Below are positions 10,152 to 28,846 of a stretch of 43,912 nt of DNA, one piece after another. Position 1 is the stretch's first letter; the number at the start of each line of letters is the position of its first letter. The stretch covers positions 1 to 43,912 of the forward strand of contig QHOS01000022.1 in the NCBI GenBank assembly GCA_003219415.1, given 5' to 3'. The DNA comes from Verrucomicrobiota bacterium (GTDB taxonomy: Bacteria; Verrucomicrobiota; Verrucomicrobiia; Chthoniobacterales; UBA10450). The notes below the pieces were generated by a model that did not search any database, was not told the DNA's origin, and was given only the letters and a program-made list of their open reading frames with translations. Made by a program: the position numbers and the translations under genes.

Positions 10152-10225
10152 GCCCACTAAACACACGAAATATCCGAAATGAAATTCACAGTAATCTTTT
10201 CGTGTTTTTCGTGTGTTTCGTGGGC
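10152..10225. repeat. phased-arm palindrome P2 (period 9, CACGAAA units)
   Basis: Lies inside the efflux operon, between the HlyD and ATPase genes. Left-arm units of nine bases: CCCACTAAA (10153), CACACGAAA (10162), TATCCGAAA (10171). Right-arm units on the minus strand: CCCACGAAA (10224-10216), CACACGAAA (10215-10207), AACACGAAA (10206-10198). The arms pair across a spacer of about 17 bases. Confidence 0.8.
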
Positions 10226-17101: not shown

Positions 17102-17212
17102 TGTCATCTCGAACGAAACGAGGGACCTCGCCTACGAAGTTTGCGTCACCTCGGGCGGTCAGCGTAATCGATCTCTCTTGTCGGAGGTCCCTCGCTGCGC
17201 TCGGGATGACAT
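17102..17212. repeat. TGTCAT-type palindromic repeat, copy 4 (GAGGGACCTC subtype)
   Basis: Left arm TGTCATCTCGAACGAAACGA followed by GGGACCTCG; right arm on the minus strand TGTCATCCCGAGCGCAGCGA followed by GGGACCTC. It occupies the whole spacer between the RlmI-like gene and the coiled-coil operon and could terminate the upstream transcript. Confidence 0.85.
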
Positions 17213-18391: not shown

Positions 18392-18406
18392 GGTTTCAAA
18401 TGAAGT

Positions 18407-18480
18407 GTGAAACGTGAGAAGTGATTAGTGAGAAGTAATTAGGCTGCCCACTTCTCACCTCTTACGTCTCACTAATCACT
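18407..18480. repeat. phased-arm palindrome P3 (period 7)
   Basis: Between the divergent rlmI-like gene and purC. Five left-arm heptamers in exact step: GTGAAAC (18407), GTGAGAA (18414), GTGATTA (18421), GTGAGAA (18428), GTAATTA (18435). Five right-arm heptamers on the minus strand, also in exact step: GTGATTA (18479-18473), GTGAGAC (18472-18466), GTAAGAG (18465-18459), GTGAGAA (18458-18452), GTGGGCA (18451-18445). It ends seven bases before the purC ATG, so it must lie in that gene's leader. Confidence 0.85.
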
Positions 18481-18486
18481 ACGCAT

Positions 18487-19383
18487 ATGCAAACCGCCAC
18501 ACAATCGTCCATCGAACTACCGGGAATCAAGAAATTGCGCAGCGGCAAGGTGCGCGAAGTTTTTGATCTTGGCGACACGCTTCTGTTTGTCGTAACCGAT
18601 CGGATCTCGGCTTTCGACGTGATCCTGCCCGACCCGATCCCGCACAAGGGCGCCGTGCTCAATCAAATTTCCGCGTTTTGGTTCAAGCGTTTCGGGGACA
18701 TCAAGAATCACCTCGTGACGGCGAATTTCGAAGAGTTTCCGAAGGAGTTGGAATCGTTCCGCGAGCAGCTCGCGGGACGCTCGATGATCGTGAAGAAAAC
18801 GAAGCCGCTCGCGGTGGAATGCGTGGTGCGCGGTTATCTGGCTGGCTCCGGATGGAAAGAATATCAGGAATCGCAGAACGTTTGTGGAATCGAGCTTCCG
18901 GCCGGACTAAAACAAGCCTCGCAATTACCGAAGCCAATCTTCACGCCGTCGACGAAAGCAGAGCAAGGTCATGACGAGAACATCGACATGAAACAATGTG
19001 TCAGGATTCTCGGCGATGAAATTGCCAATCGCTTGAAAACGCTGAGTCTCGAAATTTATTCGCTCGGCCGCGAATATGCGGCGCAAAAGGGAATCATCGT
19101 TGCAGACACGAAATTCGAGTTTGGCATCGTCGATGGAGAATTGCTTTTGATCGACGAATGCCTCACGCCGGACTCTTCACGGTTCTGGCCGAAAGATGAA
19201 TACATTGTCGGGCAGAGCCCGCCGAGCTTCGATAAACAATTCGTGCGCGATTATCTGGAGACACTCGACTGGGACAAAAGTCCGCCTGCTCCGCGTCTCC
19301 CGAGAGATGTTATCGAGAAAACGTCGGCGAAATACCTCGAAGCATTTCGCCGCTTAACCGGCAACGAGATCGCAAACGCTTAG
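18487..19383 (+). CDS. purC: phosphoribosylaminoimidazole-succinocarboxamide synthase
   Basis: SAICAR synthetase of de novo purine synthesis: ATP-dependent ligation of aspartate to CAIR. It is 298 residues, the longer form of the family. Motifs: [20 protein letters not shown] with the ATP-binding loop and [20 protein letters not shown] at the N-terminus, [18 protein letters not shown] in the middle, and ADTKFEFG...[16 protein letters not shown] in the second half. No other purine gene is adjacent. Its 5' leader consists of palindrome P3, which leaves no obvious Shine-Dalgarno sequence. Confidence 0.97.
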
Positions 19384-19404: not shown

Positions 19405-19497
19405 TGTCATGTTGAGCGAAGCGAAACATCTCTGACTGTTCCAGCGAAAGACTGCTCCGAAAATGATCAGAGATTCTTCGCTTCGCTCAGAATGTCA
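19405..19497. repeat. TGTCAT-type palindromic repeat, copy 5
   Basis: Left arm TGTCATGTTGAGCGAAGCGA with AACATCTCTG; right arm on the minus strand TGACATTCTGAGCGAAGCGA with AGAATCTCTG. The internal spacer resembles that of copy 6 (ATCATTT...GGAGCA) but in the opposite orientation, so these are two insertions of one element. It follows purC. Confidence 0.9.
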
Positions 19498-23555: not shown

Positions 23556-23648
23556 TGTCATTCTGAGCGAAGCGAAGAATCTCAGATCATTTCTGGAGCA
23601 ACCCTCTGCAAGAATAACCAGAGATGTTTCGCTTCGCTCAACATGACA
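23556..23648. repeat. TGTCAT-type palindromic repeat, copy 6
   Basis: Left arm TGTCATTCTGAGCGAAGCGA with AGAATCTC; right arm on the minus strand TGTCATGTTGAGCGAAGCGA with AACATCTCTGG. It lies between the convergent Zn-ribbon methyltransferase and mdh genes, a position suited to a bidirectional terminator. It is the inverse orientation of copy 5. Confidence 0.9.
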
Positions 23649-25359: not shown

Positions 25360-28300
25360 ATGCCGCGAAATAACGAGCTTAAAAAAATCCTGCTGATCGG
25401 GTCCGGTCCAATCGTAATCGGACAGGGTTGCGAATTTGATTATTCCGGCGTGCAAGCGTGCAAGGCGTTGCGCGAGGAAGGCTATGTGGTCGTGCTGGTG
25501 AATTCCAACCCAGCCACCATCATGACCGATCCAGAATTCGCGGATCGCACCTATATCGAGCCGATCACTCCGGAAGTAATCGAGGCGATCATGGAACGTG
25601 AAAAACCAGACGCTATTTTGCCAACTCTGGGCGGACAAACTGCGCTTAACGCTGCGATGGAATTGAACCGCAACGGCGCGTTGGCGCGACACGGGGTGAA
25701 GTTGATTGGCGCAAACGCCCAGGCGATTGCAAAAGGCGAAGATCGCCAATTGTTTAAGGAAGCGATGTTGCGCATCGGGCTGGACGTGCCGCGCTCAGAA
25801 GTGGCGCGTTCTCTCGCGGACCTTGACCGTATCGTCGCTGAAGTTGGAACTTTTCCGCTCGTCATTCGCCCGGCCTTCACTCTGGGCGGAGCCGGCGGTG
25901 GGATCGCTTACAATCGTGAGGAGCTCGATGTAATCGCGGCGCGAGGCCTCGATCTGTCGCCGGTCCACGAAGTGCTGATTGAGGAATCGCTGGTCGGATG
26001 GAAAGAATTCGAGATGGAAGTGATGCGCGATCGAATGGACAACTGTGTGGTTGTTTGTTCCATCGAGAATTTCGATCCGATGGGTGTGCATACCGGCGAC
26101 TCGATTACTGTCGCGCCCGTGCAGACCCTTACCGACAAGGAATATCAGATCATGCGCGATGCTGCGTTCGCGGTCATTCGCGAGATCGGTGTGGAGACCG
26201 GCGGTTCGAACATTCAGTTTGCGGTGAATCCTGACAACGGCCGGATGGTCGTAATTGAAATGAACCCGCGGGTCTCGCGTTCCAGCGCGCTGGCGTCGAA
26301 GGCAACGGGATTTCCGATCGCGAAAATCGCGGCAAAGCTCGCAATCGGTTACACGCTTGATGAAATCAAGAACGATATCACCCGCGAAACGCCGGCATGC
26401 TTTGAGCCGACCATCGATTACTGCGTGGTGAAGGTGCCGCGGTTTACGTTCGAAAAATTTCCGCAGGCGGATGCAACGCTCACGACGCGGATGAAAAGCG
26501 TCGGCGAAGCAATGGCTATCGGACGGACGTTTAAGGAAGCCTTGCAAAAAGCGCTTCGCAGTCTGGAGATCAAGCGCTTCGGCTTATGCGGCGATGGTGC
26601 GAATAAAGATGTCGATGCTGAGACGTTGCGCTTGAAGCTGGCGATCCCGAACGCGGAGCGGATTTTTTATCTAGCCCAGGCGTTTCAAGACGGAATGCCA
26701 ATCGACGAAGTTTTCGAATTAACGAAGATCGACAGGTGGTTTTTGCGGAATGTGCAGCAGATCGTGGAGGAAGCGAATCGGCTGCGTAGTAGCACAGGCA
26801 TCTTGCCTGTGGGGCAGGCGGGCGTCTCGCCTGCCGAACGGGAGAATGACTCAAGCGGCCGTGACCCGCAATTTCATCCCGTGGATCGGCACGGGAAAAT
26901 TCAAAAACACCAGCCCGCCGGCCCCACAGGCAAGATGCCCGTGCCACAACTTCTTCGCGCAAAAAAGCTCGGTTTTTCAGATCGACAACTGGCGGTAGCG
27001 AACGGAGTCAGCGCAACTGAAATCCGTACCAAGCGGCAGTCGTCAGGCGTCCTGCCTACCTATCGGCTCGTCGATACATGCGCGGCGGAGTTTGAAGCGT
27101 ACACGCCTTATTACTACTCGACGTATGGCGATGAGAACGAGCGGCGCGAGAGCGGCAAACGCAGGATTATGATCCTTGGCGGCGGCCCGAACCGGATCGG
27201 CCAGGGAATCGAATTCGACTATTGCTGCGTGCACGCGGCCTTTGCTCTGCGCGAGCTCGGATTTGAAACCATCATGGTCAACTCCAATCCAGAAACGGTC
27301 TCCACGGATTACGACACGAGCGACAAACTTTACTTCGAGCCGCTCACGCTCGAAGATGTGCTCAACATTTATGATCAGGAGAAACCAGAGGGCGTATTCG
27401 TTCAGTTTGGCGGTCAAACACCGCTGAATTTGGCGGACGGATTGAAGGCGGCAGGCGTACCCATTCTTGGCACTCAGCCCGAAAGCATTGAGACCGCAGA
27501 AGACCGACGCTTGTTCGCGGCCATGCTCGACAAGCTTGGTCTGCGCCAAACCCCAAATGGATCGGCCACGAGCACCGAAGACGCCGTCGCGATAGCCAGG
27601 AAAATTGGCTATCCAGCACTTGTTAGGCCGAGCTTCGTTCTCGGCGGGCGCGCCATGGAGCTTGTCTATAATGAGGAGGATCTTCGGCGTTATATGGCCA
27701 GCGCCATTGAGGTAACGCCTGATCGTCCAGTGCTGATCGATCGTTTTCTTGAAGATGCGATTGAGGTCGATGTCGATTGCATTTCGGACGGCGAAGCGAC
27801 CGTGATCGGTGCAATCATGGAGCACATCGAGGAGGCGGGCATTCACAGCGGTGACAGTGCATGCGTCATTCCGACATTCTCGTTGTCGCAAGAAGTTCTG
27901 GACGAGATTTCCGCCGCCACAAGGGCGATGGCGCGCGAGTTGAATGTGCGAGGCCTGATGAATGTGCAATTCGCCGTGAAGGGCGACAACGTTTACGTGC
28001 TGGAAGTGAATCCGCGGGCGTCGCGCACGGTTCCCTTCGTCAGCAAGGCAATTGGTGTCCCGCTTGCAAAACTCGCTGCCAAAGTGATGACCGGAAAATC
28101 ATTGTGCGAGCTCGGGTTCACAGAGGAAATCGTGCCGAAACATTTCTCGGTGAAAGAAGCGGTGTTCCCCTTTCTGCGCTACGAAGGCCTGGATATCTCG
28201 CTCGGGCCGGAGATGAAATCGACCGGCGAAGTGATGGGCATCGATGTCGATCTCGGCCTCGCCTATGCAAAATCGCAGATGGCCGCACCGCCGCCACTGC

Positions 28301-28701: not shown

Positions 28702-28774
28702 ATGACGAAATCTGAATGACCAATGACGAAAAAAATCCGAACGATCGAAATGACAAATGCCCAACGTTCGATTC

Positions 28775-28846
28775 TGTCATTCCGAGCGAAGTCGAGGGAT
28801 CTCTGATTTATCATTAAGAGATACCTCGACTCCGCTCGACATAACA
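28775..28846. repeat. TGTCAT-type palindromic repeat, copy 8 (short)
   Basis: Left arm TGTCATTCCGAGCGAAGTCG with AGGGATCTCTG; right arm on the minus strand TTATGTCGAGCGGAGTCGAG with GTATCTCTT. The arms are close together (72 bases in all), so it can fold into one simple hairpin. It lies between carB and the cyclophilin gene. Confidence 0.85.

Follow-up and report, generated by a model that had tools for sequence, protein, structure and literature searches.

P2, a palindrome at positions 10152 to 10225 of the 43,912-nucleotide stretch of verrucomicrobial DNA analyzed here (the window), belongs, as a solo copy without a gene, to a repeat family whose full form encloses a single GxxExxY gene. 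The full form consists of an inverted array of three 7-nt words, the gene, and a matching inverted array. We consider it probable that the GxxExxY protein reads the words and moves or maintains the elements in trans. The family appears to be very widespread and previously undescribed: the open-licence literature gave no account of an association between GxxExxY and repeats, although an earlier description elsewhere is possible. The open-licence papers on GxxExxY or PF13366 did not appear to deal with mobility, and when that literature was searched with the repeat sequences, the matches listed were unrelated.

Structure and setting of P2

The two arms of P2 are 31 nt each, are 84% complementary, and enclose a loop of 12 nt (10183 to 10194). 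The left arm (10152 to 10182, plus strand, GCCCACTAAACACACGAAATATCCGAAATGA) comprises three 9-nt units and carries the words CACTAAA (10155 to 10161), CACGAAA (10164 to 10170), and TCCGAAA (10173 to 10179), the last being a decayed word that reads CACGAAA in the orthologous palindrome L023. In the right arm (10195 to 10225, minus strand, GCCCACGAAACACACGAAAAACACGAAAAGA as read on the other strand), all three words are CACGAAA (words 1 to 3 at 10216 to 10222, 10207 to 10213, and 10198 to 10204, minus strand). The word spacings are 9,9 in either arm, and the corresponding 9-mers, CCCACTAAA, CACACGAAA, and TATCCGAAA on the left and CCCACGAAA, CACACGAAA, and AACACGAAA on the right, all end in AAA. 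P2 thus shows the arm structure of the proposed family, with three words per arm (one of them decayed), equal spacings, and the C[AG]C side of the words facing outward, a polarity found in the family at a ratio of 116:7. No GxxExxY gene lies between the arms, the 12-nt loop taking the place that the gene has in full elements.

The palindrome of three in-phase nine-base units per arm that had been reported in a preliminary description of this DNA is real. The folding energy of P2 as single-stranded DNA was −21.9 kcal/mol, compared to −7.0 kcal/mol in shuffled sequences (z of −7.1), and 0 of 200 shuffles folded as well. Its stem score of 18.5 was higher than that of any of 5000 Markov shuffles (maximum, 17.5), and none of the other 74-base segments sampled from the window reached it. 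An Rfam search of the window gave no match.

The location of P2 in an HlyD-ATPase spacer was also described correctly. P2 occupies the gap between the genes for an HlyD-type membrane fusion protein (PF16576, PF13437; 10234 to 11181), its upstream neighbor, and an ABC ATPase (PF00005; 9157 to 10164), its downstream neighbor, both on the minus strand, within a TetR-HlyD-ABC-ABC2 operon. The listed GTG start of the ABC ATPase falls inside P2, and the gene more likely begins with an ATG at about 10115. P2 is orthologous in two close relatives (L022 and L023), while in more distant congeners the spacer holds unrelated palindromes, decayed arrays or arms, or half arms. No clean empty site was found at this spacer, some palindrome, half arm, or decayed array being present in every relative read. 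P2 may have persisted in the operon gap because an insertion there breaks no gene.

It had further been proposed that P2 and four other palindromes of the window share one construction rule. In this form the proposal does not hold. The palindrome at 18400 to 18490 (GTGAGAAGTGATTAGTGAGAAG...) is a period-7 array, and those at 17102 to 17211, 19405 to 19497, 23556 to 23648, and 28770 to 28845 form a TGTCAT..TGAGCGAAGCGAA family (TGTCAT..TGAGCG) without arrays of 7-nt words; at least three distinct families are represented among the palindromes of the window. The motifs searched for from the TGTCAT..TGAGCGAAGCGAA family were absent from all seven Y1_Tnp loci of the source genome. At 26786 to 26950, 38-nt inverted arms (GTAGTAGCACAGGCATCTTGCCTGTG) surround about 89 nt and constitute a further repeat family.

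Word arrays and the GxxExxY gene

The core word pair of P2 occurs six times in the source genome (an assembly of 253 contigs). When the entire palindrome served as query, ten matches were listed, two of them being P2 itself and its own reverse arm. Congeners carry full-length P2-like palindromes. Some of the matches in the source genome are longer versions of the arms of P2 and enclose an open reading frame of the GxxExxY/PDDEXK_3 type, a PD-(D/E)XK nuclease family (PF13366/TIGR04256) of about 125 amino acids. The source genome has four GxxExxY copies, which are old (dS of about 0.8). Arms of CACGAAA words were found at two of them, the copy on contig C226, whose start codon lies within the arm (ATGACACGAAAAG, MTRKE), and the truncated copy C211:9815; the arms of the copy on C217 are of the CACGAATT type, and those of C211:3340, a pseudogene, are of the ACAGAAGG type. 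P2 and the GxxExxY element have in common the word and the outer GCCCACGAAACACACGAAA, so that P2, like a miniature inverted-repeat transposable element (MITE), shares its ends with a gene-bearing, putatively autonomous element. Its spacing code is 9,9, compared to 9,10 in the intact resident element, and P2 thus represents a sister family rather than a direct deletion of that copy.

GxxExxY was present in 104 of 194 genomes of the phylum. When the two flanks of each gene were compared as inverted sequences, with a score of at least 16 as the threshold, inverted word arrays were detected on both flanks in 80% of 109 GxxExxY genes; of 1248 control windows taken at these loci, 0.16% reached the threshold. 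The same score was reached across phyla in 68% of 77 named loci versus 0.29% of controls, the 77 being those scored among eighty loci that came from a narrower alignment and are biased to the GPGLLES clade. These loci belong to Acidobacteria, Chloroflexi, Planctomycetes, Bacteroidetes, Proteobacteria, Cyanobacteria, Nitrospirae, Methanosarcinales, Methanophagales, and others. The arm words are 7 nt long, of the type C[AG]CN[AG]A[AGT], with lineage-specific versions such as CACGAAA, CACAGAG, CGCAAAG, CAGGAT, and others, and are mostly spaced by 8, 9, or 10 nt (121, 214, and 59 cases, respectively). The exact nine-base phase noted earlier is therefore correct for P2 but is one variant and not a rule, the spacing differing by element.

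A three-word pattern with 9-nt spacing gave 929 matches in the 194 genomes, while the same pattern read backwards gave 5, bearing out the earlier suggestion that phased arms are widespread beyond chance. A gene tracking such arms had also been envisaged, and GxxExxY proved to be one: 921 of the 929 matches, which include in part the GxxExxY genes' own arms, were in GxxExxY-bearing genomes. Array and gene were found together in 73 genomes, the array only in 5, the gene only in 31, and neither in 85 (P = 3.8e-22; n = 194). Permutation within families gave a mean of 65.5 and a maximum of 72 genomes with both, against the 73 observed (5000 permutations). Among S23-bearing genomes, the array was present in 68 of 95 with GxxExxY but in only 5 of 45 without it, and the presence of S23 thus does not explain the co-occurrence.

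In several genomes, array matches far exceeded the number of genes (197 for 1 gene, 91 for 5, and 58 for 2), and 39 of 40 sites fetched from high-copy genomes were gene-less. In some high-copy genomes, the solos spread inside larger repeats. In G199 (L315 to L317) and G061 (L306 to L312), word-array palindromes lie within larger near-identical repeats, seemingly spreading with them. G074 (L286 to L304) displays intergenic mosaics of successive single arms with different words and a recurring CTGGCAG tag between them.

The words also follow the protein. In the GxxExxY tree, 82% of nearest neighbors have the same word class, compared to 34% after shuffling (maximum, 47%), and this is still the case for 76% of nearest neighbors that are more than 0.6 substitutions per site apart. 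The spacing code is more loosely coupled than the word, being common to 50% of nearest neighbors versus 20% in the null. With words located separately in the two flanks, the arms of an element had both spacings equal in 94% of cases (null, 24%; maximum, 38%) and agreed at 94% of word bases (null, 73%) but at only 47% of linker bases (null, 35%; maximum, 52%), which is close to chance.

The GxxExxY protein and the origin of the arrays

The GxxExxY, D, and ExK residues were invariant in 32 diverse members of the protein family. dN/dS among copies of the genus was mostly 0.04 to 0.17, with one comparison at 0.24, showing, as judged from these substitution ratios, that the protein is under purifying selection. 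An AlphaFold model (pLDDT, 92) has a PD-(D/E)XK nuclease fold, and the structures closest to it were Cas4 SSO0001 (4ic1; Z of 9.7) and, at a Z of 7.3, an archaeal Hjc resolvase. Foldseek gave no match below an E value of 0.001 in the PDB, and a sequence search of solved structures returned only T7 endonuclease I, which was not significant (E of 0.99). On the basis of the modeled fold, GxxExxY is likely a nuclease. The gene was rare on plasmids, and none was found in phages with one query.

Related genomes differ in where they carry the elements. At the overlap of nuoL and nuoM (nuo names as read from the flanking sequences), many congeners are empty, while the source genome, G019, and G015 have a CACGAAA element; the element in G013 belongs to another clade, whose words are CGCGAAT. 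Between nuoK and nuoL, some spacers are empty and others hold GxxExxY elements, which represent both clades (L326 and L327; L328 and L329). In L331, this spacer has a CGCGAAT palindrome without a gene, and in the source genome (L335) it has a gene-less derivative that retains the 3' end of the gene and contains a second palindrome. These two junctions of one genus (L326 to L335 and L071 to L092) repeatedly hold different palindrome elements, including period-7 ones. Locus L003 (C211) has lost the middle of the gene and retains the region of the start codon together with the final codons. No clear target-site duplication was seen, the flanks at the nuo junctions being too diverged to define one. 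The empty sites, the gene-less derivatives with gene remnants, and the low dN/dS would all be consistent with an active element.

We favor a reading in which GxxExxY, a compact Cas4-like PD-(D/E)XK nuclease, would recognize the words of its own arms and cut or process the element ends, and would thereby move or maintain its own element and also, in trans, solos like P2. In bacteria as in archaea, differences in the word accompany differences in the nuclease, which points to a protein that reads its repeats. Several observations speak against this reading: a clean empty site for P2 and a clear target-site duplication were not found, the spacing of P2 is not that of the intact resident element, even the gene copies of the source genome are old, some solos spread within larger repeats, and the gene is rare on plasmids, with no match in phages from one query. 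The same coupling could be expected if the arrays were operator or maintenance sites, through which a GxxExxY that is not self-mobile regulates itself or serves the host in DNA processing or repair, the solos being relics or dispersed binding sites. The strong purifying selection, the near absence from plasmids, the lack of phage matches, and the old divergence of the copies speak for such a role, but we regard it as unlikely, given that element positions differ between related genomes, that the same operon gaps are empty or filled by different element clades, and that gene-less copies far outnumber genes in several genomes, which looks like proliferation.

Of the two processes that the preliminary description had offered for building the palindromes, an array-binding protein is favored by the comparison of arms, since words and spacings match between the arms of an element while linkers hardly do. 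Hairpin-primed slippage or template switching, which would build and homogenize palindromes without a sequence-reading protein, could account for the near-mirror-image arms and for the strong folding of P2. It should, however, have homogenized the linkers too, whereas these match scarcely above chance, and the arrays track one protein family, so that we consider this origin improbable; that a word-reading protein fits better than hairpin copying is our main mechanistic inference. We give equally little credence to the possibility that P2 is an RNA hairpin under selection in its operon, as a processing site, an attenuator, or a device for differential expression. P2 does form a strong stem in an operon gap and is conserved in L022 and L023, but in distant congeners the same gap holds unrelated palindromes or decayed or half arms, and elsewhere the same arms enclose the nuclease gene; an RNA-hairpin role may be a side effect. 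The least credible origin is from a REP/REPIN-type system, in which a RAYT (a Y1 HUH transposase) would move the palindrome. Dispersed extragenic palindromes and seven Y1_Tnp genes in the source genome would suit it, but CACGAAA arms were present at none of these seven loci, the arms flank GxxExxY instead, and P2 has no GTAG foot. The RAYT-like transposase suggested earlier is thereby not supported as the partner in the source genome. Two Y1_Tnp genes (L353, at C246:36134, and L351) are bordered by long inverted repeats whose sequence is different.

With a word-reading nuclease, a very common family of proteins whose function is unknown would acquire a role that can be tested, and an explanation would be at hand for a large class of palindromes interspersed in the genomes of archaea and of many bacterial phyla. 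Should the nuclease indeed read the words, their natural variety and that of the spacings would amount to a ready-made specificity code for a nuclease of about 125 amino acids. More tentatively, and with somewhat less than even confidence, we propose that GxxExxY could define, as founding enzyme, a class of minimal mobile elements of its own, in which a single stand-alone Cas4-like nuclease would read terminal arrays of three spaced words and move or amplify palindromes in trans. Word specificity would have co-evolved with the protein in both bacteria and archaea, and the period-7 S23 elements would be a parallel class.

Relation to known elements

Like REP/REPIN elements with their RAYTs, and like TIRYTs (PMC3733652, PMC3116915), the P2 family consists of small, dispersed, extragenic palindromes, numerous in this family as well, with gene-bearing and gene-less forms and a family-specific partner gene in or beside the repeats. 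The partner is a PD-(D/E)XK nuclease in the P2 family and an HUH transposase in REP/REPIN systems. Furthermore, the arms are made of three spaced words instead of one hairpin with a GTAG tag, and the words, unlike REP/REPIN sequences, vary between lineages in step with the protein. The GTAG (or CGTC) foot of REP/REPIN elements is not seen in P2, whose foot is GCCCAC and which has no GTAG anywhere in 10152 to 10225. With MITEs, which are non-autonomous deletion derivatives of DNA transposons, the family shares gene-less copies that retain both ends and gene remnants; it differs from them in having no DDE transposase, word arrays as terminal inverted repeats, and no established target-site duplication. 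GxxExxY has the fold and the catalytic D..ExK residues of Cas4- and Hjc-type PD-(D/E)XK nucleases but is set apart by its N-terminal GxxExxY helix motif and by having no solved homologue by sequence. Unlike for Cas4, no CRISPR genes were noticed in reading the element loci.

A parallel in plan is offered by the S23/IVS elements (PMC4990558), in which, as in GxxExxY elements, inverted repeats enclose one small gene. The 23S rRNA intervening sequence of Coxiella has three to four tandem heptamers (GACAGAT) ahead of the start codon of S23 (PMC4990558). Searches of the source genome gave 12 matches to S23 four-helix-bundle genes, which here, as in other genomes of the phylum, are flanked by strict period-7 arrays: identity in the flanks was 0.58 at lag 7 and 0.22 to 0.29 elsewhere, except at its multiple, 14. 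The palindrome at 18400 to 18490 of the window, with its period of 7, matches the arms of one of these genes (C120:17177; L362) and is a solo copy of the S23 class, the window thus holding solos of two classes. P2 itself does not belong with S23/IVS elements, as it has a 9-nt period and CACGAAA words and its gene-bearing relatives carry GxxExxY. The long-unexplained heptamer repeats of S23/IVS elements are in this way tied to a parallel class of the same plan, with two differences: S23 has another protein fold than GxxExxY, and its arrays have a strict period of 7, whereas those of GxxExxY elements are 7-nt words spaced by 8 to 10 nt.
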